NCBI GenBank assembly: GCA_018417955.1
Contig: JACTVC010000012.1
Coordinates: 1,240,001 to 1,304,000 of the forward strand
Origin: Laccaria trichodermophora
Lineage: Eukaryota > Basidiomycota > Agaricomycetes > Agaricales > Hydnangiaceae
Direction of reading: 5' to 3'
DNA: 64,000 nucleotides
Shown: positions 16,373 to 59,462 of the stretch, one piece after another
How the letters are laid out: each line of letters starts with the position of its first letter
How positions within the stretch are numbered: the first letter of the stretch is position 1
Position numbers and translations under genes: made by a program
The notes under the pieces: generated by a model
What the model was told of the DNA's origin: nothing
The model's input: the letters and a program-made list of their open reading frames with translations, nothing else
Database searches by the model: none

Positions 16373-19300
16373 TTAAGTGGCCATGATGACATCCCCAGAG
16401 GAGGGAGCACTAGACTCAGGGCAAGGGCCACCTACCTTGCCCTTCTTCTGCCGCTTTGTTTGGAGTTTGCGATGAAGCTGTGGCATTGAGAACGTAAGAC
16501 GTGTATCTTCAAGAACTTGGACAGCTTGTGAGGCCGTAAGCCCAGTGCTTATGGAGGTCTCTATTTGACTGATGAAAAACTGAAATTGAGACCATTTTTG
16601 ACGGGCCTGAAGAGGCAGATTAATGTTGCATTGAGAGGTGAACAATGTGAAAAAAGACATACAGTGGTGTTTTGGCGAGGACGCCATGCAGCATGGTGTC
16701 CCTTGTTTGACCGCTTGTCCTTGCGAGAACCCCATTCAGTCTCCACCATCCGCAATGGAGGCTTGCGACCAACTCCCTCAATAGCCGTGCCCTCATCCCA
16801 GCACTTCCAGAGAGAGCTGACATCAGAAAATTCACCCAAATTGCCTGGGCCCCAACAATCCCAAAGAAAATCGGGATGGACAACCAGACTGAACAGAGCC
16901 TGCCATCCACATGATGACATAGAAAAGTCAGGGTAAGCAGTCATTGTAGTCTGGTCAGATGCAAATGCTGCTGCTGGGGGAAGAATGATGTCGAAGGGGG
17001 TGGGTGGCGCCAAGGGACCAGGCGAGAGCCGTAGCACATGATACTTACTGCCTTTATGGTTCACAGACACCACATATCGTGACGCAGCTCCCTTGGAGTG
17101 AACAGAAAGCAGCTCTGGATCGACTACAGGAGGTGGTAGAATAACACTTTGCAGTGGTGAGGTTGGTGGGATTTGACTTGGACTGGCTGCAGTGGCAGCA
17201 TGGAGTGGGGTACCTGCACTTGCCACCATACTAGTCTCCATCGAGGGAGGCTGCGGTGACGAAAAGTTGGAATGTGGCCCTGTTGGGCTGGGGGTAGCTG
17301 AACGAGAGCCAACAACAGCCACATGAGTTTTTACACTATGTGATGGAGAGAGCGGCTCAGTTCGACGTGCAAGAACTTCAAGCAATGAGTGGGATGACTT
17401 GACAGCTTCCGACAGCTCTCTTTGTGATGTTGAAAGGGAGAGGAAGGCGCTCTGTGTTGCGACCTCCTTAAAGTTCGCTGCAATCTCAGTATCTACTTGG
17501 AAGTGGGCCTCAACTTCTTTCCGAGCATGAGGCCATTGTGAAATGAACTTGGAAGCCAGGGACGACTTAAAAATTGGCATGCGGCTAAATAGCGGTGAGT
17601 CAGGAAACTTTTCGTGGATGGCAGCACTAGCCTAGCAAAGATTGAGACAGTGAGAATCAGTAAAAACTAAACGGAGCGATGAGATGTAGACACACCCGCC
17701 AGAAGAAAGGGCGAAGTTGTTGCAACAGCTCAACAAAATTGACCAAGCCCTGGTTGACGCGTGCCTTCCCTTTGAGCTCAACAAGTACCCTCTCCGCAAA
17801 AGGGAACAATTGGGTTTGGAGCTCATCAGGAACAGCAACGGTGGCCCAGGGAACATGATAAGCCTCCCCAACATAGAAACCTGCCAACGCTGTAACCGCC
17901 TAATGACTAAATGAGTTTCCCTCAAGGAACAATTGGCCTAAAGAAAACTTACAGACTTCGGAATCTTGGCAGAATAAACCTCACGTTGAATGGTACTTGC
18001 CCAGTGTCCGATGGCACCAATTTCATCCATTGTAACACTAGAAATGATGAGCAGCGGCTGGCACACAAATAAGTCATGACATACCCCATCTCTTCAAGGT
18101 GGGTAGGGATAGTCTTGCGGGCAAGGTGGAGCTTCTTTTTCGATTTGATGGATGTCGATTCAAGGAATTTTGTGTACATTTTTCGGAGGGCATCATCACC
18201 ACAGGCCTTCCCCACTGTTTTTCCAAACATAAGCTTTACCTGATAGTTTGGTTTAGTAAGTGTAACGGTGTGCTAGTATAAGCTACTCTTGCGTGACCTA
18301 GGATCATCGTATTTACTTCTGTTTACTTCTCACTATATAGTGTCGCTTACAAAATAAATAACACACTTTGCAACCACATCATATATTACATGTGGACGGA
18401 GTCACCCCTTTTCTGTACGGCTAGGCAGCCTTATGCCTCCCCTCCGGGATACAAGAGTCCTGCGCCGGGTGACCGCGCCCCAGTTCCTGGGTCACAGGAT
18501 AAACTACACGTGGTACCGCTTTGCGGCACCACGTTACGAACTCTTTCACGCGTACCACGAATATTCTCCGCCGCCATCTCGCACTCGCGCCTTCGTCAAG
18601 AAGTCCCGAATCGCCCTACGGTTTCACAATGGTGGGGGCACCGCGGACTTCATCAAGATGAAGTCCCAGAGTGCAAAGACTCGGAGAAACTACATAAGGC
18701 AAGTCTGATTGACAGATCCTGTCAACTCATGACACCTTCCAGAATTCCCAACTCCCAAGTAAACCTAAACCCTAACACAGGCGAGAAAACCGTTGTCCAC
18801 GCCTCGCATGATGCTCCCACATCCTCGTTAGCGCGAATATCCGCTGCTTTCGAGGGCAACAACTCTGCCTCTCCCTTCCCCACATTAGCGTGGATACCCG
18901 CTGCGTTCGAGGAACATGACTCGGTTACGACAGACAACGGCTCACAGCCTCCAAAAACCCTAACGACACCAAAGAAGCAACCTCTCCCACCCGACACGAG
19001 CTATGCCCACTGCAGTTGTGCGAGGAACTGCCCTCGCCAGGTCCTTGAAAGCCAAACGATCGTACCCCTAGAGAAATTTCCATTCCGTCAATGCCCTATC
19101 GACTACACAAACCCTCGATCGTGCAAAGACACCAACCCAGTCAGCCAATCCACTCTGGAGACCTCGTTAGCGCGAATAATCGCTGCTTCTGAGGGCAATG
19201 ATTCAGCTATGACAGACGACGCCTCTTCACTTCCCCTATCCATGTTAGCACGTACATCTGTAGCTTTCGAAGATAACACCTTAGCCATGACAGACGTCGA

Positions 19301-22300
19301 CCCTACACCGTCTCTACCCACGTTAGCGCGTACATCCGCTGCTTCCGAGGGTAACCACCCAAATCCGATGGATGACCTCTTCGTGCCTCTTACATCCAAC
19401 ATTTTGGAGGGTGATGAAGTAGCTATGAGGAACTATGACTCGGTGCCTCCCATGCTCGCCACAGCATTCTTATCGACGGCTGTATCACTGGAGGAATTCC
19501 CTTCCCGTCATCGCCCTAATCACCAATTGCCACCATTTAAACCAGGCGTCTGCGGGCAGATCACTTCGTTGTCCTATTCGACGAAATGGACAATCTACCC
19601 TTCCGATGGCGACCGCCATAAGATCGAATTCCGCAATACCAACCGTTCTACTAGTCACGAAATCGTAGCGTCAATAAGGTCTAGGGAAAGGGGGAAGGGA
19701 ATGTCGATGACAGAAGAGCCTGGTATTGAAGTCGATTCTCCCTCTTGTAGTAACCCCATACTCTCGAAAGCGCGAACACCCGCTGCTTTCAAGAGCAATA
19801 GTTTGACTACGATGGACAACGACTATACTCTTTCCATACCCATGTTAGCGCATATGCCCGCTGCTTTCGGGGATAACGACCCAACCATAATACCCTTTAA
19901 GGAATCCTCACTCTATCAATACCCGAGCATTGACCCAGCCAACCAATTCATCCCGGAAAGCTCGTTAGCGCGAAACCCGGCAGCCTCCAAGGACGAGACG
20001 ACAGACTATCAAACTACCCTAGCCATTCCTAGACCCTTGGTAGCGCGACTGCCCGCAGCTTATGAGGGTAATCACCCAGTTACAAAGGACGACCACCCCA
20101 TACCCTCCATACCTGCGATAGCGCGACTACCCATTGCTTTCGAGAGTAATCTCTCTGTTACAATGGATGACAACTTTACGGCTTCCTGCCCCGTGATAGC
20201 GCGATTGCTCGCTGCTCTCGAGAGCGACAATCTGACTAGGATAAATGACGGCTCTTCAACCTCCATATCTACAATAACACGAACATTCGCCATTTCCGAG
20301 GGTAACGATGTGGCTACGACAGACCGTGGTTCCAGCTCTTCTGTAACCATGGCGTCATCAGAGCGACTGGAGAGTAGTCCTCCAAATTCTCTGGAACTAT
20401 CAAGCATGGAAGACATCACTAATGGATGCTCAATGAATCCGGCTCTCCCCATCAACTCAAGCTCCGCCCGTTGCGATTACTGGTCCTGCTGCCGCCTGCA
20501 AAGCCCTGTTAACAAGAATTTACCCGTGCTGGCGACCCAAGTAATGGTGGCGTCGAAGGAATTTCCACCCTGTCAACGCCCTCATCACCAATCGCCTCCT
20601 GTTAAACCTGGCGGCCACCAAACCAGTGTGATTACCCTCTTGGATCAAGCCGCCTCTAAAAGGGCGAACTCATTACCTGTGCTCATAGAGAAAGGTGCGA
20701 ACAAAGTGTTCGCCACTCGTAAGGGCGCAGACAACCTGAGCAACAGCGTCAGTGTCTCATACTATCCAGCTAATCATGATTTCGTGATGCTGTCAATGCC
20801 TAGAAGAGAAAAGAGAAAGGGAGCAGCAATGAAAGAGGAACATGTTTCTGATGCCGCTTACCTCTGGGACAATAGTCCTTCATCTCCATCTGACCATACA
20901 CTTTTGGAATGGCGCTCGCTGTTCAAGCTCGGTCAGGCAGATCTATCCTCGAATTCCGCAGCTGTCCAATACGTGAATATGTTGTCTGTGCTCAGTAAAG
21001 ACACGACTAAGATTCTCGCTATTCTGGAGAGCGCGAACAACTCTAAAATGATTGCTCCCCGCAAGATGACGCGAAGGCCCTGGTCCACCAATGTGAACCT
21101 ACTCATTATCCTCCATGCAGCATCCCAATTTAAGATTAGGTTCAACAAAAATCAGTCGTCTTTACGGAGCCGAACTGATAAAAAGGACGAGCTGGAAATA
21201 ACGTCGGTAGAACACAAGAGCACAACTGAATCTCATGCGGCTCCACAGGATTCTAAACTCACTTCCCCTTTCAATAACAATTCTATGTGCATATCCCAGC
21301 CCGAGTCGACGAGTTCCCACGTCCTAGACGATATGGGAATGTGCCCGAACCCCGTCGCTCCGCTAAGCATGAATTACTTACCTGTCCTCGGCAAGGGTGC
21401 AATTAATCTACTTGCTGCTTTCACTAGCGCAGTCAATCATAGTCCCAAACCGACCACCTCGAGTAAGATGAATCAAAGGTCTTCGGCTATGGGCGCGACG
21501 CAGCTCGCTGCCTTGAGACGAAGTCCATGGAGACTAACGTTAGACCTTGCTCGAACAACCATGAAGAACGATAACAATCAGAAGAAGTTCACGGAATTGA
21601 GATTCAAGGGGGATGAAAACCAGATGCTCCCCTTTTGTCAGACCAGAGCGAGAAATGAGCCTTACAACACTCGACGAAAGCATGAGAGTTCATTCAAGTT
21701 TAGTGCGGTCCTCGAGGACAATGAGGAGGTCAAGGATCTATTCGACTTGGCGAATCCTACTACCGCTCCAGTGAAACACTCTCCTGGACTCTTTGGCTCC
21801 ACCATGAATGATAATGTTCTGTTTTCATCAAGCTTGTTGAACGAATCACTCCTAAATCAAATGAAAGACGAATGTGATCGGTCAAGAAATACTATTGAGT
21901 TAGTATACGTAGCTTTGGAGGTACACTGTTGGGAACACTTGGACGTAACTAAACGAAATTCAGCCAGCCAAGACATCAGTTTGGAGATCCTAGCCAGATG
22001 TATCAACCTGATCTTCTCTTATGAAGTCGAACATAACCAACTGCTAGAACCTTCCCAAGTAGTTGCGACCATTCATGTAGTCCTACGAGCCCTAGAAGAA
22101 TTCGTTCCGGATCATCAGATTACCTCTTCGCAGTCGCTGACTACTCAAACAAGTCGAGCCAGAACTCCCCCACTCAACCTAGTGTTACGAAATTATCCGG
22201 CTAAGACCTCCAAACGCTTAGTACAGGAAACCAACACACTTTCATGGATGCATGAAGTGAATTCCGATCAGAGGACCACCGGCTTCCACGAACCGACAAG

Positions 22301-25300
22301 AGTACTATGGCTATTCATCCCTGGTAGCAGAACTATTAGGAGACAAGTTGGGAAGCTCTTCGCCAAACTGGAGTACTCCGATGAAATACTGAAGGACTTG
22401 CAAATCCTGAGAAAGCTTACTACTCACCAACCATGCCGAACACAGAATTCGAACAAGGGAGCCGAATTAGACACTACTAGAAAATCGCCAACCCGCTCCG
22501 CGAAACTGAATTTTACACGAAGTTTTACTTTGAGTAAAGGACAAGGCGTCAGGAGGGCTCCAACACAGTGGCCGGAAGTAACGATGGCAAAAGAATCTGT
22601 CGTGAGGAGGCTTCCGGTGTGGACGGCAACCTCGAATGACAGCTCGAGGACGGTAGCTCCTCGTGACAATGATAATGAGCTCAGGGTGCCTGCTGCGTAC
22701 AGAACGCGCATATCAAGCCCTAAGACATGCAGTCGCTCTTATCAGTTTGAAAGTGATCTATCGCGCATCCTACTTGCTGCGAAGATAGTCCCAAGGGTAA
22801 CAAAAGAAGCGAACCTTATTCGTGAAACCAAAACCAATACTAGAGCTTGGCGAGCTGGGGGGATAAAAGCTAGGAACCTTAAATCTAGTCTCAATCGGCC
22901 GTTCGAAGATAGCTTCTTACACGATAACCCCAAGTGTTCCCCTCGAAATCACCCTCGTTTTCGGAGTACTCTTCCGAAGGCTCCTAATGCACCGTTAAAT
23001 TGGGGCCCCAAGGAGGTAGAAGTAGTCGATACCCCATGCTCAGAGAAGTGGGCGGAGGCGGAGCCCTATATTCCTGTTTATGAAGAAGACGAGGTAGCGA
23101 AAACGTCTGCCCCTCTTTCGTCGAGAGAGGACTTTGAAACTGCATGGGATCGAAACGTCCTCAGTTACCCTACCAGATACGGCAGAAAGTTAATAGGAGG
23201 GTCCATGGGGCGCGAGTTATCCGCAGCCTCGGTCCAGAATATCCATAGAGAATTTGTAATTCAGATCATACCTGCCAAGATGCGAACCGTCGACTACGAG
23301 AAGGCAGTAAGCTCTACAAAGCCGAATAAAATTAGCAAAAAGGAATACGTAAGAGATAGAGCCTTGGACGACTCCTTTGATCAACCCTATCCCTTGCAAA
23401 ACGTGGCGGTTCGCGTGACTTTCAATGGTATAGGCAAAAGGATAGTAAAAAAAACTGTTGTAACCCATACTATTCCATCCCATCGATGCGTAAGAGCGGT
23501 CAAGGTTATCAGATTCCTGCATGCCATCATTGTAATGGACGACGACTCACCCCTAGACGAAGAAATTCTCGACAACATAATTCAAGGTTTAGCGGCCATG
23601 AAGAATCTAATGGCGGCTACTCCTAAGTATGACGTCGGCTTTGAAAGCGAACATAACGAATCTCGAGAACCTAAGACGTCGGTGGGTTCAAGAGATCTGT
23701 TAAGTGATGACAAGAGTGGGACAATAGATCTTGAACCCAGAACTCCTGAGGAGTATCGAGAAGGGTTATCGGAGAGGTTACGCAGCAATGCTACAACTTT
23801 CGGAGTTAGCCGTCACATAGGGTACATAGACGCGCGAGTCCTCATACTGCTGCTCCTCAACGCCCAACCAATCCCTGAACCAAAATGCGGTGCCTCACTC
23901 GCAAGAGAAGAAATCATAGATCGACAGCGTGGGACTTGGATTGGAAGAGGAGTAATCAGACCATCCACCCACTCCGAGTCAGGGAAATGCTTAGAGCCTA
24001 GCACAAAACCTGTGCTCGATGAACTCTCTATGTCTCGACAGTCGGAGATCACGCAGGTGTTATTGAGGGCACGGACAGCGCCACCTTCCTTGGACCATTC
24101 AGCTGACACTCAGTTGGCTTTGCGTTACCCGTCAAGACTACAAGTTCTGACCCCGTTTCTATTGCTCGTCGCATTCGGATTTCGCAAAAACCGGCTTGAA
24201 ATCAAATCATTAAATGAACGGGGGGCTACTCTGGATGAGGATTCTGTCCGACTAATCACCTACTGGAGCAGAACGGCGTTGAGATCGACTGAATGCAATT
24301 ACGACGCCATAGGTCATGAAACCCTTGCCATGAAAAGGAATCTCGTGGAATACGCTGCCCTACTAGTCGGGGCGCGAGCTCACGAACACGCCAATCGTCG
24401 AGAGGCAGCGTGGGGGGCAGTGATTACCGCTCACCCAGACCTCAGGATTGTACGCCGAGCAAGTCGGGTCTGCTCTATTGATAATCCTCTATCATGGCTA
24501 ATACGAAGCAACTATCAAATAGCAACGTGGAGAGTGGTGCCTAGGATTGTACGCCAAGCAGAACAAAAAGAAGTCGCCGTACCAACTAACCCCGCTGCCC
24601 TAGCTGCAAATAGGGCGCGAGTTCACGGGAGCCCCAGACGTCAAATTGAAGTACGGGGGGCAACACCTGTCATTCACCACAATGTTAGGCCTGTACGTCG
24701 AGCTGTGGCGGGACGAGAGGCTGTATACCGAAGCATTGCTCAAGGATTAGATGATTTAAAGCTTGTCGAAACAACGGTCGAAGCTCATACTCACCTCAAT
24801 CCTGAGACTACACCTGACACAAGATGTCCAACCGCACAGGCTTCGGCACATTTGCACTTGGACCGTCACGATCCTGCAGTAAAAAACGGATGGAAGTATC
24901 AATATACGACCATATTGCCTGAATTCGACTCGGACGGGATTGCTCCGTTAGAGTACGATACAACGGCGGAGAACATTGCTCGAAACCCAGCGTACTCAAT
25001 CGGTACCCGCATTTCTGATGAATCTCAGGCCAATTCGATCACGGCGTCTAAACCTACGTTCCGTGCCATGCAACAGGAAACCATTCACGAACCGAGTAGT
25101 CATACGAGTTGCAAGCTCGCAGCTGAAGCGAAGCGCGAAGCCTGGATAAGAACCATGAGTGAGAGTCTCAGTGGAAGTTCGAGCTCCGGCGAGACAAAGG
25201 ACGATACTGTCGTAAATGATCTCGAAGATATTCCAACGCGCTCCAAGGTCGACTCTAGGACTCACCAGATAGGAGTCAGACCTTATGAATTTCCGCGGGA

Positions 25301-28300
25301 CGAGGATTATGCAAGACAATGGCAACAGCGCACCCCAGTAGACCTGAAAATCCACAAGGAGATTACGAAAGGCAATAGGACGAATGAACCTTGCCCCACT
25401 CCTCATTATACTAGGGAGTTATTCTATGAGAAACTCTCAAACCCCACGAGCTATCATCATGGAGGACAAAATGAGCCTCCATATCTCATCTACGATGGAT
25501 GGGAAATATGTCCATATGTACCCGAGTTAGAAGTTGACTATATATTATGTTATATGCTTAGATCTCAGGCTTCATATGGGAGAACTCCCTCTGGATCTCG
25601 CCGCTTTATAGCGCGACTACAAAGGTTGTTTTTCTGTGTGCTCGAGTCAGTAGTCAACTCTATGGCACGACGGAAACATGGATCTCCATATGAGAATACA
25701 CACGCAGGTCCCCGCCGCTTCACAGCGCGATCACAAGAATGGTTATCCCAGCCATTCAATAGGAAGAATGTTGAAACTTGCACGCCTACTTTTGAGGCTC
25801 AGTGGAAGATTAACTCTGATCCCTCTGATCTAACGGGCGTGTTACCGTTCATGCGTAGTATTCCATCGCAGACCTTCCCATTAGTAGTAATGAAAGCCAT
25901 GTTGACGGAGCTACCAGCCGCAGGTCCCAGGGAGCGAAAAGAATTCGCCAGACCTTCTATTGAAGGAGTTGTTAACGTATTTGGATTACCTGGAACTGTC
26001 GCTTCAAGCCAAGACAATCTTGCGCTTGCATCAACAAACCACCCGCTAACGGAGGGACAAGTGGAAATTTGCAATACGACTACGGAGCAGACGTTTCGCG
26101 TTTACGATTCCCCTGCTGAGAAGAGCGAGTCGAATGGGCTCCGAGCCCTGATTTATGCGTACTACCACGGCTTACAGTCTTCCACCAAATGGTTTCGGAA
26201 TCATACCCTATCGACGAGATGTAATCGAATAACATCCACTGTGAGCGTGACAATGTCAAAGAACAAACCTCCACACAGACCCTCTCTGCTTAGTCAACTT
26301 ACAGAAGACCATATCGAAGCCTTGGTAACTATTCAACTCGTCATCGAAGGGAGTGCTATCACCCTGTTTCAAGATCAGCTAGTAGCTAAAGCCCGCATCG
26401 AAGAGGGACGATCCTTTCAAGAGTTAAGAGATAGTAGAAACTACACCTTATTCAAATTTAACCTTCACTCTCTCAAACCTCTAAAGGATCGTAACACTGG
26501 CAAGAAAAGTTTGAAGTACGGATCTACCTTTGATTATCAGAGGAGTGACAAAACCTCGCCCTTTGACCCTGAAGGAAATCATGACTATCATACCAGCAAG
26601 TTAATTCGGCTGAATCAAGTACCAGACAATACGAGGAAAGAAATTCTATGCGAACTCCCTAACGACTTCCGCTCCTTCGGCAGAGCGCACGGAGCTCTAT
26701 GGAGTGTTGTAAGCCAATCTGGTGTACTGGTTCTTAAGTTCATCAAATCCCTACGAAGCCGCGAACAAGCTCCATCAGCCGTTGCAAATATTGAGGACCA
26801 AAGAGGAGCCCCATTCTGGATACTGGATCCCGAGGCGAGGATGAAGGAAGCTGGGGACCGCTACATAGGAATATGGACAAATAACACAGAAGAACAACCT
26901 ACTCAATGGTTCCTGAAGGAGGGTCTCCATCACGTCACGGCGCGAGAAATTTGGTCCTCTAAGCGCGTACAACTCGCTGCTCTAAAATCAGTAATCGTCT
27001 TTGCGATAAGGGTTGCCGCCGTGTCTATTTGTCACACTCCAACCTTCGACAACTCAGAACGGACCCGAACACGATCAGAAGCTGGCATGGACAACTCATT
27101 CATCATCGCCATCAGTGAAGGTAGACAACTTCGGATCAACGTGCTCTCTTCAGCAAGGAAAGCGGATCTAGCTCATCTTAGTGCTCTCTCGTATGAACCG
27201 AGGCGAGGGAACGGATATAGCAGGAAATTCTGCTTGGAAAGAATCTTACTGGAGGGGTCCGCGAAGAACAGTGGAGATCACCATGCTTGCTCTATGTACT
27301 ACCGAAATGAGCGTTATCAGATTCCGTCCCTTCAAACTCTCATAGTCCCTGATGGATGTGAAGCGGAACCCGACGAATACGAATGGCAGCGCCCCAGAGA
27401 TGCCCAGGAGGACTTAATCAGAACGCGAGGGCAATGTATTCAACTTTGCGGGACCTACGAACACTCACAACTTGAGACGTTAGCTGTGTCAAAGGTAACT
27501 CCCTGCTCCCTCGTGGAACCAGAACCCCTCAGGAAGTTTTCTCCTTTGACTCCGGGTGACGTTAGGGACAGCGACACCGATTGTTATCTGGGTACAAATA
27601 ATGCGGAGGAGTCTGCCAGAAATGACCCCAAGAAAATCGATGGTTCGATTAAAAGCGCGACAGACTACTTGCACGCTGCTCAGAGCCCCGAGCGAGAATC
27701 CGTTGTCAACGACACGAACACGAATTCTAGGGCCGTTCACGAACGGACTCCCCTCTCCGTCATTCAAGCTGATTCAGCTATGGTAACTCATGTGATCCGG
27801 CTGAACGATAAATTTCTACCGGAGGAGGAAGATTCTAATACTAGGACGAAGAGCCCAGACATTCCCTTAACCACACTCTTCAAGGATTTCAAGGTTAGAA
27901 CGAGAAGAATCGCGACCACCAACCCATTAGTATTCGCTGCGTCGAACTTTATGTTTCACAGGACACCCTTACGGTTGACCGTTAAACAAGTATACAGAGC
28001 CACTCGTATAAGACAAAAGCAAGATTACTACCAAGAGTTTTTTATAGTAATCCTTGAACAAGCACGTCAATGGGGAATCTACAAGCATCACCAGCAGCAA
28101 AATAAGATGGAGCCTTTGGGATCCTCCGATGACTATGGAGACTCTGTAGGAGCTCTCGGACGGCCTACTGATACGTGGCACGATCAAGTTCGTCGGTGTG
28201 GAACGGGATCCAAACACCATTGCATCCATAACTCAACCACCTATGATCCACCCCATTACGCGGGGACTGCATAATCGGGAATGACGCCTTTCGAGTAAAC

Positions 28301-31300
28301 GTCGTAGATCTACACCGCCAAAACATTATCAAGAACTTCGGTTCGACACGTAAACCCCCAAAGACATCAGTGGTCGCCCATTCTCCTTCCTCACCAGATA
28401 ATTCACTTGCTGCTCACCATACGAGTCTCACTCCTACCTCCTATCTTCTGCGCCCCAGTCATCACAGACTTACTATCCAACTCCCCATGGCCTTACGGCG
28501 CGAAGGGTATCTCTACCTGACTCTGTTACATTGAGTTCTACCTGGCCATGAACGGCGCGACAACGCTACCTTTCTCAGAACCCGATGAGTATCATTGCCT
28601 CCATTATTTCACATCGACCCTGCCGATGACTGTCTGATGTCTAACTGCCCGGCTAAGCTGTTCAAGTCAAAGCGAAACGACGGGATGAACGTAGTATGAG
28701 GCTGTCAACAGGTCAAAGAAGATACCACAAGAAACTCAGTGGAAAGGGAACGATTGCGCCCATGGTCGATGCTCCAATCTCACGGGGGGGCTTTGTAACG
28801 GTGTGCTAGTATAAGCTACTCTTGCGTGACCTAGGATCATCGTATTTACTTCTGTTTACTTCTCACTATATAGTGTCGCTTACAAAATAAATAACACACT
28901 TTGCAACCACATCATATATTACATGTGGACGGAGTCACCCCTTTTCTGTACGGCTAGGCAGCCTTATGCCTCCCCTCCGGGATACAAGAGTCCTGCGCCG
29001 GGTGACCGCGCCCCAGTTCCTGGGTCACAGGATAAACTACACGTGGTACCGCTTTGCGGCACCACGTTACGAACTCTTTCACGCGTACCACGAATATTCT
29101 CCGCCGCCATCTCGCACTCGCGCCTTCGTCAAGAAGTCCCGAATCGCCCTACGGTTTCACAGTAAGGAACAACATTGATTTCGGATGAGGGCAGACTTGC
29201 CTTGCGCCAGGTCAATGGGTAAGACCAGTCCCAACCCTCAATCTTCTCGCACACATTCTCCTGGTCAAATATGTAATGCAAAAGGATAGCAAGAGCTCCA
29301 ACAGAGCAACGAAGCGGATTGCGGTGTGGCAGCACGAAGTTGTAGTCCGGTTCCTGCTTCTGTTATCCTCATCTCAGCAAGATATAAAACCAACAATACA
29401 AGTAAACTACAGACTCCTGGCTTCGAGACCTTTGTCTCATGATAAAGGGAAAGTACACCAAAATAATATTTACCGACACCGCAGTGTCGCCCGTCAGGTG
29501 TTGTATAGTTAGGAACAAGCAGGGAGTGGGGTTGAAGGCAGCTGAGCAGCAGATTGATGAGCTCGTCGCCACGGTTGAGAGTGGTGCACTGCCAAGTCCA
29601 GCTAAAATGTGCTTTGATGACTGATGGGACTAGTGAGATAATGTTGTTAGTGATGGTAGAGAAGACATGTAATGGAACTCACGTTGATCGAGCTTTGTGA
29701 AGATAGCGGATGTGATCTCCTCGAAGTGCACAGCGTGCAGCTGTGAGTCCAGTATCGTGTTTTCGCTGATGTCGAAAAACTCATCTCTGGAAAGTATAGT
29801 TATGAGAAATGGAAGATGTAGGTGGGGAAAACTGACTTACTCAAGGCGCAAGCGTTGGGATTCTACCATAAGAGCCTTGTAAAAATCCTGGCTCCTCGAT
29901 GTAGATGTGGGCCGACGTGCTTGCAGGGTAGGGTCATCGTCGCACTGTCGCCGCCGAACGCGGCCGAGCATGGTCATATTCTTTTTCAATGACGACTATG
30001 GCACGAATATGTCAGTTAATGAGGCTCAAACAAAGACGGGGGTCACCGACCGATGATAAGCGTGCCGGGCCCTCCTTTGGGTGACCTCGGGTTGTAAGGA
30101 GGCTCCTTGTTGCAGCATACTTGAGGTATTCCATGGTGTGGTTGGCATCGACGATGTGGTCAGGGATCGTGCCCGCGGCGATCGCTATGGGTACCCAGCG
30201 CTGCCGTGCAGGCGTTAGTGATGTCCCCTTGCATAAAAACTGATAAAAAACATACCCGCCACAGAGAGAGCACGCTCTTCTCTGTTTGCCGCCCACTTTT
30301 TCGCCTTGTGTCCATGATGTATGCATCAATCTAAAAACTGGTCATGATCGGCAGGTAGAAGCTTGAGGCGGAAAGCGCGTACCCAAGCTTTCGAGCTTTC
30401 TGTGCCTGTGATGAAAGGGGATGTTACTCAAGACATTGTGCTGGATGAAACTGAACTCACCCAACGTATCGATCTCCATAGAATCCTCGCGTGGCCCATC
30501 GTCGCCTTCGTCGTCACCATGGTCATCCTCATCGTTGCTCTCTTCACCCGGACCATCGTCTGCGTTCTCGAATCCGTGGTTGAAGGACTCTTGCATTGCT
30601 TTTGCGACGTCGACCATTTGGTCCGTCCCAGCGACGACGGCGCCCGCAGCTGACAGACTGGGGGTCTCTCTTTCTGTCTGTTGGCTCTCGTTACTGCTTG
30701 GTATTCTTCGTTAGCGTGAATTGACTCCTGCACGGAAGGCCGAGACGACGTACCTGGGTTTGGGCAAGCATTGCTGGTCATGCTTTTCAAGCCGCTCAAC
30801 AAGCTCGCCCTTCTTCCCACCGACCTTGAGGTTCTGCTCACGGCATAGGCTCTTTAGAGCAGGGACATTCAAAGAATAGCTGTAGAAAGTAAATAAATCA
30901 GCAAACGTTCAGTACTAGCCATTGCGGTGCTTACTAGAGTTTTTTTGTGCTCTTCTCATTTGAAACCCGGCCTGCATGAAAACGAGATGTGAGCTCCCAC
31001 TGAACAATGTACCACGGCACATTGAAGGTTCTTGCCTTGTCCTTTTGAGGTTCTTGCTGGTCCACTGGCAGGCTGTCTCGATGGCAAAAGCGGGGCTGAG
31101 GGGAAGGAACAAGGTTCGAATGTGTTCAAAGAGTGCTGATGCCCAACACACCTTCTGCTTCGGGAACGGCTGTGGCGACGCTTTGGGAAGGTGCGGCTAC
31201 AGACGCCGATTTTTGATGGGCAGACTCCGGAAAAAGCGCTGGATCGATGCTGAAGTTGTCCGTCTGCTGAGGGGTGTCGTTGTCTGGAAAGCGGAACGAG

Positions 31301-32040: not shown

Positions 32041-34418
32041 ATGTCCCGCCCTTCCCGCCGACAAGTTCAGCAGCAGCAACCTCCACCTCAGCAGTATGCG
32101 GCAGTCCCACAAAGCCCTTCTCGCGTACCAGGTGGTTCAGCCACATCCCACACCAGCCACCACCACTACACTACCCCACATCCGAGTGGTCCACGTCCTG
32201 TGCGGACATCGTCGGCCAGCAGCAGTAGACAAGGTCATAGAACATCAGGAAGAGGTGCCATGGTCATGGGTGTTGCAAGTGGGGCTATAGGGTCGGGTTA
32301 TGGACCATATTCAGTACGTTGTGCGCTCTGCTTTTGTCCTTAAACATACTGACCTCTCTCCGCAGTACAATCCGAATCAAGGCAGGGATAATGGAGTTTA
32401 CGCCAACTCAAGATTTAGTGCTACGCCCTCGGAAAACTCTGTCGCAACGCCGCCACAGCATGAGCAACGGGCTCCACCCGCCGCTCCTACAACAACGTTG
32501 CCTCAATATATGTGGGACAAAGACCCTGATCTCGACGATGCTCTGCATAACCCCGATCAAAGTCGAGACCGGAATTTTACCCTGTTTTCGCTACGGGGTT
32601 GGGTAAACGCCATAGCAATCGTCGTTCTCATAGCGGGCCTTGTTACCCTCTTCGTTGGATATCCCGTCATCAATTATTACAGCCATCTTCCATCTGCTAT
32701 CAAAGGCTATAATTTGGGCGGAATTAACGGGACAGGACAAATTCCCGATCTTCCCAACCTTCCAGGACTGATCGACCCCGACACACCAGCATCAGCCATG
32801 ACTCGTACAGGTTCAGACGGCAAGACATACAACCTTGTGTTTAGTGACGAGTTTAATACGGATGGCCGCACGTTTTATCCGGGAGAAGATCCTTTTTGGG
32901 AAGCAGTCGATTTACATTATTGGTGAGCGCTGGACACGTTGACCGGGTGTGTGTTTTTCTCATTCCCGATAGGCCAACAGGTGACCTTGAATGGTATGAC
33001 CCAGGTGTAGGCTCTACTCTTTTTTGACAGGATCGACTCTCCCTCACTTATTTGCACTTAGGCTGTTACGACGAAAGATGGGAAGCTGGTCATCACCTTA
33101 CAGGAAGTAAAGAACCACGACCTTAATTTTATGAGCGGTAAGTCCGCCCACCCACTGGTACTGCTCACCAGTTGATCTCGTGTCAGGCATGTTAACGTCT
33201 TGGAATAAGCTATGTTTTAATACTGGCTATGTAGAGGTGTCAATCAGTATGCCTGGGTCCCCAACTGCTCCAGGGTTATGGCCAGGTAAGGCTTTATTTC
33301 ACGCTGCCGATTAAAAACAGAGCCAACGAAACTATCTTGCAGGTGCCTGGACACTGGGAAATCTGGTTTGTCCTGCCATCTGTTTCTCAAATCCTAATAC
33401 TCAACTGTTTTTTTCTAGGGAAGGGCGGGATACGGCGCGACTACCGAAGGAATGTGGCCTTACAGTTATGATTCTTGCGATCTTGGTACCTTCATCAACC
33501 AAACCAGCAAGACTGGCGTACCCGCAGCAGCTGCGACCGGCGGTGCCGGAGGTTCGCAACTAAGCGGACTTCCTGGACAGCGTTTATCTGCGTGTACATG
33601 CCCAGGCTCTGACCACCCCGGTCCGAAGTATAACGTCGGAAGGGGTGTTCCCGAAGTCGACATCATTGAAACCCAGATAGACGTTAGCCGCTTTGTGGGC
33701 CAGGTTTCCCAAAGTTATCAATGCGCTCCCTACAATTACCAATATAATTTCGACGGAACCTCGCCAGCAACGACTATCTACGACAGTTCTGTCACGACAC
33801 TTAACTCTTACAAGGGTGGTCCACTCCAGCAGGCGGTTTCGGCCCTGACAGACATCAGTTCATCGGCCTACGGTGGAAACGGCTACGCAACGTATGGCTA
33901 TGAGCTTTGGGCGGACCCGAACCACAGGAGTAACAGTTATATTACGTGGTACAGTAATGGGAAGCCTAGTTGGCAAATCACATCTGCGACAGTAGGGCCC
34001 GACTCAACTTCTCAAGTGAGTCAGAGACTTATCCCGGAGGAACCCATGGTGAGATTCAGTTGTCTTTTTTGGGGGGACTGGGACTGAAGCATTGGGATAT
34101 GCAGTACCTTATTCTCAATCTCGGCCTTTCCCCGTCGTTCCAAAAGCAAGATTTCAAGCATCTGGTATTTCCCAGCCAAATGTTTGTTGATTATGTCCGC
34201 ATATATCAACGGCAAGGAATTCAGAACGGAATCACCTGTGACCCTTCGAACCGCCCCACAGCAAAGTATATCTCACAGTAAGTGGATCGTTTAGTGGCGT
34301 TATGTATTGTCTTGACGAATCTTCTAGGCACCTAACGGCATACAGTAATCCCAATCTCACGACATGGGGAGCAGCGAACTTTTCTTTCCCAAGAAATTCC
34401 CTTTACGATGGCTGCTAA
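32041..34418 (+). CDS. SKN1: Skn1/Kre6-family GH16 protein, beta-1,6-glucan synthesis
   Basis: Exons 32041-32313, 32366-32922, 32973-33006, 33062-33137, 33187-33285, 33343-33365, 33419-34048, 34105-34277 and 34328-34418 join to 651 residues. This is a type II membrane protein: a cytosolic Gln/Pro/Ser-rich tail, then one transmembrane segment ([20 protein letters not shown], about residue 170-190), then a luminal GH16-like domain. Family motifs are [73 protein letters not shown] (the GH16 ExDxxE-like catalytic region) and [13 protein letters not shown]. Kre6/Skn1 proteins act in the Golgi or at the plasma membrane in assembly of wall beta-1,6-glucan. Kre6 and Skn1 cannot be told apart here. 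Confidence 0.95.
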
Positions 34419-46888: not shown

Positions 46889-56057
<9,169 letters not shown>

Positions 56058-57595: not shown

Positions 57596-59462
57596 TCAAA
57601 GCTTTGAGCCAAACTGCGATTCTGTCACACCAGCACCCATGGCAGCTGTTGACGAAACTCCTCCAGTGACTGTCTTGATCAAATTGTCGGCATAATCAGC
57701 GCCGCTCCACTGTGGAAATTCTTATCAGTATGTGCCAATGCCACGTAGAGAGTCGCATACCTTTTGATGAGTAAGAACATCAGTGCCCAACTCGCGCTCT
57801 TTACGCTGGACGAGCTCAACGTAAGCCTTCATGCCAGTCTTCGCAAAATTTTGGGCGAAGAGGTCCGAGATGTAGGCATTCGAATGCAGACCACCAAGCT
57901 AATCGGAAGCTTGTTAGACGAAAGAGACTTCAAGAGAGATGATAACGCACAGTGATGAATTGCCAGACGAATCCAAGCTTGCCCAGCTCCCAGACATAGC
58001 CTTGCATATCTTTGTCGTTCAAACCTGCAGCCTCCCAGTTGAAGGATGGACTCAAGTTGTACGCCAACCAATGACCTGGGCGAGCCGCATGAACACCATG
58101 AGCGAACTCTTGAGCTTGCTCCAAAATCGGCTTCTTCGTTTCCATCCAGAGAAGGTCAGCGTACGGGGCGAAGGCAATGGCGCGATGGATAGCACACTGG
58201 GTACCACCTTGGTACCTGTAGTAACCCTCGCGAGTCCTTGGGCTGTCCCAATTCCAGTATGGAATGGTTCGCAGGCCAAATTCCTTCTGCGCAATGGCAA
58301 CGGCTTCTGGGTGGGAAACCCGCGAAACGCGCGCCACTAACTTATCTAGGGTAGCCTTGGTCGCACCCTGCTTCCCAAGCGCCTTTGCCAACGTTGTGGA
58401 GAACAACTCCAGGTTAGCACTGGAGATCCATTGATCCTCGATCGCTTGGAGTTGGTCGCCACTTTTGCCAGCAAGCTCGGCCTCCACCATGACATCGTTC
58501 AGAGGGGGTTGCGACGGATTTGTAGCTCCCAGAATAAAAGCATGATCCCGGCCGTCAATGTTCGAGGTGATGAGGGTGGCCGCCTCGGAGTCCGTTCTGG
58601 CGATGACCAAATTATCAACCCCCATGATGTCATATTGCAGACGAATAGCAACGAGACGGTTAATATGCTCCTGGATAGGCACCAAAACTTTGCCCGCCAT
58701 GTGGCCACACTTTTTGGTTCCTGGTGCTTGATCCTCAACATGAATGCCGGCGGCACCCTTTTCGACGAACATCTTGGTTAATTTCATTACAGCAGTGAGA
58801 CCACCGTGGCCGGTATCGGCGTCAGCGACTATGGGGCGAAGATAATCAACGAAAGGAGTTTTGGCGAGCTCAGCCTCGGACAGCGAAGAGCGTGCCTCTC
58901 TTTGCTTTCGGTCGTGGAATAGCTGAGCCATGAATAAATGTTCAACTTTGTTCGGGACAGTGTTCGACGGATAATCTAACATCGGAATCAGTTCCGTTCA
59001 TTCATCGGAGGGATAACATCAAACGCTACCGGCAAGATCAGGACCCGGCTCGTTTGTGCTCGAAGCCGTGCTTGACGACTGCCAACCTGAGACATAAACA
59101 GTCTCGAGATACTTCGCCATTTGCGTTACCTGGACAGGATCCAACCTACATCGAATAAGGTTTTTAGCAAAGGTGACGATGCTAGTCACTTACGCTCCAT
59201 ATGTGTGGGATGGAGTGCCGCGCTTGGCGTGCTCGCTGAGCAGTTTCCAAAGCTTCTTGCCCTGCACGTTTGAAGGATATTGGATTGCAAGTGTGCCCCT
59301 CTTAGCGACGACATCCGCGGCAGTATAGGGACGCTTTACTCGTGCAAAACGGGGGTTCTAGATTTCGTGAGCTCAACGAATGTCTGAAGAGATATTTGTT
59401 ACCTTCCACCACTGCTCGACCTGAGCAACTTCGTGTGCAAAACGGGCTCTCTCGCTAGACAT
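57596..59462 (-). CDS. ICL1: Isocitrate lyase
   Basis: ATG 59462 ([20 protein letters not shown]), stop 57596-57598. The large exon (58982 down to about 57955) contains ADADTGHGG and [19 protein letters not shown], with KKCGH the catalytic signature of isocitrate lyase. It also contains NLSPSFNW and WQFITLGGLHS-type segments. The protein ends FGSKL, so it carries a canonical SKL peroxisomal targeting signal. The enzyme splits isocitrate into succinate and glyoxylate in the glyoxylate cycle, used on acetate, ethanol or fatty acids. The length is normal for fungal enzymes (about 540 residues). Malic enzyme, 4 kb away, is a metabolic neighbour, perhaps by chance. Confidence 0.97.

Follow-up and report, generated by a model that had tools for sequence, protein, structure and literature searches.

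A 3,294-codon frame in a non-autonomous Ty3/Gypsy retrotransposon of Laccaria trichodermophora, possibly kept open for its translation

According to our analysis, the 64,000-nucleotide stretch of the Laccaria trichodermophora genome considered here (C4:1240001-1304000, contig JACTVC010000012.1; hereafter the window) carries at its positions 18261 to 29161 a long terminal repeat (LTR) retrotransposon of 10,901 bp, the interior of which is dominated by a single open reading frame (ORF) of 3,294 codons. We judge it somewhat probable that this element belongs, as a young copy, to a non-autonomous Ty3/Gypsy family of the chromodomain type, in which the frame is kept for the sake of translation and not for its sequence. 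Whether it stands for a class of retrotransposons in which translation as such, and not the encoded product, is under selection, with a polyprotein that drifts nearly freely, we regard as an even question. What is unusual in this family is its mode of evolution rather than its anatomy; the undescribed class of element suggested in a preliminary description, made from the sequence alone, was overstated as to the latter.

An open frame shared by several copies

The two LTRs of the window element show zero differences over 368 bp and have TG...CA ends; together with a target-site duplication, a primer-binding site and a polypurine tract, they are features by which an LTR retrotransposon is recognized. 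The preliminary description had read the LTRs, their ends, the GTAAG duplication, the primer site, the G-run and the uninterrupted frame correctly, and its view of the element as a fresh insertion agrees with the identical LTRs and with the occurrence in the genome of six copies with exactly these LTRs. The main features are as follows.

18256 to 18260, no strand: left copy of the target-site duplication GTAAG, read at the element end
18261 to 18628, + strand: 5' LTR of 368 bp, which includes the ORF start codon and the first ~80 codons
18390 to 28274, + strand: single ORF of 3,294 codons starting inside the 5' LTR, read below as a fused remnant of gag-pol and of a second ORF (ORF2)
18823 to 20314, + strand: 12 degenerate in-frame repeats, "LARIPAAFEGN", often 78 nt (26 codons) apart
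28794 to 29161, + strand: 3' LTR of 368 bp
29162 to 29166, no strand: right copy of the target-site duplication GTAAG, read at the element end

No other ORF of at least 150 amino acids is present within the element. The two alternative frames of the + strand contain 180 and 208 stops and the three frames of the - strand 138 to 192, and the chance that 3,294 random codons with the same composition are free of stops is ~1e-69, so that the huge intact frame does call for an explanation, as had been claimed. The genome searched is a 59.0-Mb assembly of 77 contigs. In it, the exact LTRs of the window copy, named E1, belong to 6 copies (12 LTRs at 100%); the close kin of E1 are E2, E3 (C7), E4 (C13), E5 (C14), E6 (C40), and E7 (C43), and six copies are almost identical to one another. 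The frames of E3, E4, and E5 are also open throughout, that of E3 with a 213-bp in-frame deletion, while among the copies with exact LTRs a single stop is present in E2 and a 1-bp shift, late in the frame, in E6. Since the frame is open in several copies at other loci, an assembly error at one locus, which the preliminary description had considered, is rejected.

All 11 spacings within the repeat array at 18823 to 20314 are divisible by 3. Counted by one fixed motif, 6 to 10 repeat units are found in eight of nine non-autonomous ORFs, 3 in the remaining one (C34), and 2 in the autonomous relative AUT12 described below. Repeat-unit DNA (..CCCGCTGCTTTCGAG..) was also seen by eye just before the first ATG of AUT12 ORF2, so that the unit may act as DNA or RNA.

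Descent of the frame from gag-pol and ORF2 of a lineage in the same genome

The origin of the frame can be traced by comparison with AUT12 (C12:3356993-3370026, 13,034 bp), an element of the same genome with identical 368-bp LTRs and two frames, ORF1, which has 2,954 codons counted from the first ATG, and ORF2, which has 1,162 codons (1,135 when counted from the first ATG). An integrase-family search of the genome gave frames of up to at least 2,956 codons among the matches listed. In AUT12 and in a C76 autonomous relative, Pfam families over the cut-off are RVT_1, RNase H, integrase zinc-binding, Tf2-1-like SH3, and chromodomain, and the integrase core lies under the cut-off in AUT12 and in the second autonomous relative (E values of 8e-4 and 4e-4). 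Among the matches of the autonomous pol with a named organism, the best is to Hypsizygus marmoreus (69%).

About two thirds of the window ORF is collinear, by blastp, with ORF1 and ORF2 of AUT12. Residues 1 to 206 match the AUT12 start, and the further blocks of homology are the following.

21249 to 22748, + strand: homology to the N-terminal gag side of AUT12, residues 954 to 1453 (27% identity, E value 1e-30)
23094 to 24077, + strand: homology to the region before the reverse transcriptase (RT) and to the RT start, residues 1569 to 1896 (34% identity, 5e-40)
24180 to 24506, + strand: C-terminal RNase H remnant, residues 1931 to 2039 (46% identity, 2e-21)
24915 to 26516, + strand: integrase remnant, residues 2176 to 2709 (30% identity, 7e-40)
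26541 to 28190, + strand: homology to residues 170 to 792 of AUT12 ORF2, residues 2718 to 3267 (27% identity, 2e-40)

The ORF2-like block is fused in frame onto the integrase remnant. With blastp, no AUT12-aligned counterpart of the RT core with its YIDD motif was found downstream of residue 1896 of the window ORF, nor any counterpart of the AUT12 chromodomain, and residues 878 to 1537 of AUT12 ORF1, which extend from the gag core and zinc knuckle to the protease, remained uncovered, the window copy having 115 residues where AUT12 has 660. The integrase core has lost ~25 residues, and at two positions which we take to be catalytic, the D of MDMITGLP and the first D of SDRD, the window ORF has K and S, respectively. 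In the diverged copy E11, the D of MDMITGLP is replaced by V, and the core deletion adjoins that position; this deletion, of 25 to 27 codons, is common to E1, E11, and the diverged copy C76. The protease and RT YIDD motifs are changed or unaligned in all eight non-autonomous ORFs that were mapped to AUT12, and in one of them, C9, no AUT12 motif aligns at all. The ORF2-derived block lies in frame behind the pol remnants in seven of the eight ORFs compared; in the eighth, C9, the frame ends earlier and the next 2.1 kb contains no homologous sequence. A search past the frame ends of E1, E8, E12, C5, and C9 gave no additional homologous protein.

The window ORF thus lacks the intact protease, RT, and integrase active sites of an autonomous Ty3/Gypsy element. 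By homology, its descent is assigned to the Ty3/Gypsy chromodomain lineage (chromovirus), and we read it as a decayed gag-pol plus ORF2 with enzyme regions damaged or missing, in line with the earlier view of a non-autonomous element. That it contains no recognizable pol is correct as far as Pfam profiles are concerned, since the window ORF gave no family over the cut-off (RT_RNaseH_2 appeared only at an E value of 0.17, below the threshold); it does not hold once AUT12 is used for comparison. Searches of PDB sequences and of a large protein collection with the window ORF gave no usable match. The ORF of E11 has no Pfam family over the cut-off either, and its second half gave nothing usable in a protein search. 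Structure prediction of residues 1750 to 2709 reached a predicted local distance difference test (pLDDT) value of 30, which is uninformative since the homologous AUT12 control with the same five sequences reached 33.

These empty profile, PDB, and protein searches are what would be expected if a host gene or a foreign protein had been captured between the LTRs, and the preliminary description had proposed a very recent capture. We hold such an origin to be very improbable in view of the collinear homology to gag, pol, and ORF2 of a lineage residing in the same genome; moreover, much of the ORF outside this homology is the repeat array, the unit of which also occurs in AUT12. ORF2 of AUT12, which sits after pol, has no Pfam match at an E value of 0.01 and contains an RS-rich stretch. 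An element of a different family also has a large post-pol frame, with no blastp match to AUT12 ORF2.

Evolution of the frame among diverged copies

A search with the first 1,500 ORF residues scored 31 loci, the frame lengths being read through stops inside the matches. Frames of at least 3,000 codons are present at 19 of these loci, 15 of the 31 having such a frame without a stop in the matched stretches, and the remaining loci have shorter or broken frames. Among the 12 stops in this listing, 11 are TGA. The search of the genome that had been proposed for further copies yielded, beside the six with exact LTRs, diverged copies with long frames, namely E8 (C11), E12 (C37), E9 (C67), E10 (C6), E11 (C11), C5, C34, C76, and C9; the sequences of C34 and C76 end at the edge of the extracted DNA, and C5 is without its first codons. 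Eight diverged copies have frames of 2,446 to 3,728 codons, which in two of them contain one stop each. E8, E9, and E10 have a single stop each over their whole frames, and those of E9 (C67:93384-105064) and E10 (C6:109689-121369) are private CGA-to-TGA changes at different codons, which look as if they came from deamination at CpG after insertion. The stops of E2, E8, E9, and E10 and the 1-bp shifts of E6 and E7 each occur in a single copy among those extracted.

The main weight of our argument is put on six deep pairs of copies, analyzed outside the repeats, with synonymous divergence (dS) of 0.34 to 1.04 and amino acid identity of 32 to 62%. Their ratios of nonsynonymous to synonymous divergence (dN/dS) are 0.80 for E8-C9, 0.78 for C5-E8, 0.70 for E1-E11, 0.84 for E8-C34, 0.88 for C5-C34, and 0.77 for E1-C76. 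Neutral decay of the frame of the first-named copy over half the pair distance would be expected to leave 28, 50, 53, 57, 58, and 48 stops, respectively, and zero are observed in those stretches of E8, C5, and E1; as the frames are stop-free by definition (read-through being applied only in E8 and E9) and frame-ending stops are uncounted, this test is one of length. In an autonomous control pair (one pair, 1,566 codons), dN/dS is 0.040 at a dS of 1.58. For the non-autonomous ORFs, dN/dS is far from the value of about 0.04 of the autonomous pair and points to a weak constraint at most, yet it is significantly below 1 in five of the six pairs. The proposed comparison of dN/dS between copies supports a kept frame and speaks against strong protein constraint, and the selection on the protein inferred in the preliminary description does not hold as a plain reading of an open frame, although weak selection is still compatible with the data.

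Further comparisons concern register and loss of function. Indels of 213, 60, 540, and 6 bp between close copies are multiples of 3; E9 and E11, for instance, are separated by few substitutions and one 540-bp gap. Aligned bases are in the same register at 96 to 100% of positions in all 11 pairs (repeats included). E1 and E11 align continuously over the RT gap and the integrase-ORF2 junction; given this and the integrase deletion shared by E1, E11, and C76, the frames have therefore stayed open after the loss of function. The pooled dN/dS of close pairs is 1.05 (0.81 to 1.36), contributed mostly by E11-C76 with its poorly aligned repeat region.

It could be argued that the copies are open merely because they descend so recently from an intact master that there was no time for decay. 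LTR pairs are indeed identical in 12 of the 15 cases measured, six copies are nearly identical, and other relatives in the genome show short frames and stops. We nevertheless find this improbable, since the representatives of several lineages that share only 32 to 62% of their amino acids outside the repeats all have long open frames despite their damaged enzyme regions, at distances at which 28 to 58 stops would be expected per lineage.

A stronger competitor, though in our estimate still unlikely, is a protein that works but tolerates almost any sequence, for instance a long disordered, RNA-binding, or Gag-like chain that aids assembly or competes with the autonomous Gag. The dN/dS values of 0.70 to 0.88, mostly significantly below 1 and lower than in shifted frames, would fit such a protein, as would the in-frame repeat expansion in eight of nine copies, which resembles the upkeep of a long chain, the similar composition of the non-autonomous ORFs, and the somewhat lower acceptance of radical changes in some tests. 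Conversely, 500-codon windows scanned in four pairs gave dN/dS values of 0.57 to 1.79, none being strongly conserved (the first windows are distorted by mispaired repeats). The penalty on radical changes is small, the ratio of radical to conservative replacements being 0.63 to 1.52 in five non-autonomous pairs under two classifications and ~0.4 in the autonomous pair (repeats included). Furthermore, the window copy lacks a counterpart of the AUT12 region with the gag core and the zinc knuckle.

In the reading that we judge somewhat probable, a frame kept for translation rather than for its sequence, the enzymes for movement would come from autonomous relatives such as AUT12. An in-frame loss of the segment holding the stop between gag-pol and ORF2 would have created the one fused ORF, and survival or packaging of the genomic RNA would require its translation over most of the length, possibly for escape from RNA decay or for translation-coupled delivery to the sites of particle assembly. 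Copies bearing stops would then leave few descendants, amino acid changes would cost little, and the encoded protein would be largely a by-product. The RNA of an LTR element serves as message and as genome, and open frames with drifting amino acids are expected if this RNA needs to be read by ribosomes over its length while little depends on the product. For Ty1, one study suggests that RNA stability may depend on minimal translation and not on stable Gag (PMC3945221).

Several observations weigh against a frame kept only for translation. The dN/dS ratio is significantly below 1 in five of the six deep pairs (twice the log-likelihood difference 5.4 to 17.8; 3.2 in the sixth) and lower than in control frames shifted by 1 to 2 bases, which gave 0.88 to 1.29 for the non-autonomous ORFs and 4 to 5 for the autonomous pair (repeats included), so that either a weak amino acid constraint or a bias due to the protein-guided alignment is left. 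Some of the tests show a somewhat lower acceptance of radical than of conservative replacements. Gaps are divisible by 3 at chance level (35 of 126 in eight deep pairs, by blastn and with repeats included); the common register despite such gaps means that the gaps compensate each other, be they real or alignment noise. AUT12 itself has ~3.7 kb between the ORF1 stop and the 3' LTR, and the frames of E8 and E12 stop 0.9 to 1.05 kb short of their 3' LTRs. Ty1 transposition is reported to depend on the nonsense-mediated decay factors tested, and this disfavors a simple escape from decay in that element (PMC3945221). Mini-Ty1 and mini-Ty3 RNAs with most of the coding sequence removed transpose with a helper (PMC4974528), which argues that an open frame is no general need.

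Relation to known systems and significance

Non-autonomous elements are commonly divided into two groups, one with a useful ORF and one without an ORF. Large retrotransposon derivatives (LARDs) are large non-autonomous LTR derivatives with conserved ends and a non-coding inside; the window element shares with them its size, its dependence, and its ends and differs by its 3,294-codon frame. TR-GAG elements, non-autonomous LTR elements with a Gag-domain ORF, resemble it in having an ORF, but the window ORF shows neither a recognizable Gag domain nor a counterpart of the AUT12 gag core. AUT12 itself has in common with the window copy the 368-bp LTR with a start codon inside, the LTR ends, the primer-binding site, the polypurine tract, and the order gag-pol-ORF2; it differs in possessing RT, RNase H, integrase, chromodomain, and two separate ORFs, the window copy having instead a single fused ORF in which the enzyme regions are damaged. 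The Athila families of Arabidopsis are likewise LTR elements without pol but with intact gag/env ORFs, thought to move in trans; these ORFs are reported to be under purifying selection (PMC2410132, 2008), whereas the window family has a near-neutral dN/dS and keeps mainly the frame. A precedent in another system is offered by coronavirus defective RNAs (van der Most 1995, as described in PMC8255065), which are helper dependent and have a long fused frame, the sequence of which seems to matter little. They belong to an RNA virus, and the analogy, which for the window family would concern the evolutionary pattern, is one of mechanism without kinship. In the literature searched, which leaves most subscription papers uncovered, we found no retrotransposon with an open frame and near-neutral amino acid change.

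The window family suggests a third state beside a useful ORF and none, in which selection acts on the integrity of the reading frame and little on what it encodes. If this is true, thousands of codons are kept open for the survival or packaging of an RNA, and the family would serve as an experiment of nature on the need of retrotransposon RNA for ribosomes. It would also warn against taking a long intact ORF as proof that its protein functions, and such frames could be mistaken for giant genes in annotation.

Cis signals, mobilization, and further observations

The cis signals of the window copy are as follows.

18630 to 18647, + strand: primer-binding site of 18 nt, which matches without interruption the 3' end, CCA included, of a tRNA-like gene in this genome
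18645 to 18666, + strand: hairpin or near-palindrome GGACTTCATC-AA-GATGAAGTCC, directly 3' of the primer-binding site, with one change in AUT12
28784 to 28793, + strand: polypurine tract GGGGGGGCTT within CAATCTCACGGGGGGGCTTTGT, abutting the 3' LTR and identical in AUT12

With up to 2 mismatches allowed, a 26-base pattern of LTR end plus primer-binding site is present at 185 places in the genome (reversed control, 0), and the polypurine pattern at 96 (control, 0). Between the window copy and AUT12, the 22-base polypurine stretch does not differ, and the 46 bases 3' of the 5' LTR, comprising primer site and hairpin, have two differences. Since the primer site and the polypurine tract are shared with AUT12, the non-autonomous window family is likely to be mobilized in trans. 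AUT12 or a relative would be the helper; the LTRs are about 69 to 71% identical where blastn aligns them, and AUT12 need not be the actual one. The hairpin, with fold z scores of -2.1 in the window copy and -4.3 in AUT12, is a possible dimerization or packaging signal. The likely primer tRNA genes are located at C34:1668577-1668658 and three other loci, each with a short intron; ARAGORN reads one of the four as Asn(GTT) with a non-canonical intron site, and the usual site would read Phe(GAA).

Among 12 copies considered, distinct 5-bp duplications flank all 9 that were read at both ends, the ends of E9, E10, and E11 being not set. The LTRs of E7 (C43:16452-27351) are 6% off those of E1, and its interior differs from E1 by one substitution and one 1-bp gap. 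Likewise, E12 and E8 have LTRs 5 to 6% apart and insides 99 to 100% identical, both LTRs agreeing within each copy. These mismatched LTRs with matching interiors probably arose by template switching between co-packaged RNAs. Two LTR pairs of the same family are spaced 17.7 and 15.9 kb apart (C12:3262587-3280242 and C1:3243565-3259507), with no integrase match in between among the matches listed, and are candidates for nested insertions or larger insides.

The 3' LTR of the window copy also bears a start codon, from 28923 onward, directed into the flanking host DNA, and fusion transcripts could arise from it. Pieces of host genes identified near the element with Pfam are KRE6/SKN1-like (window 33452 to 34087), PRP8-like (54324 to 55718), and isocitrate lyase (57930 to 58982).

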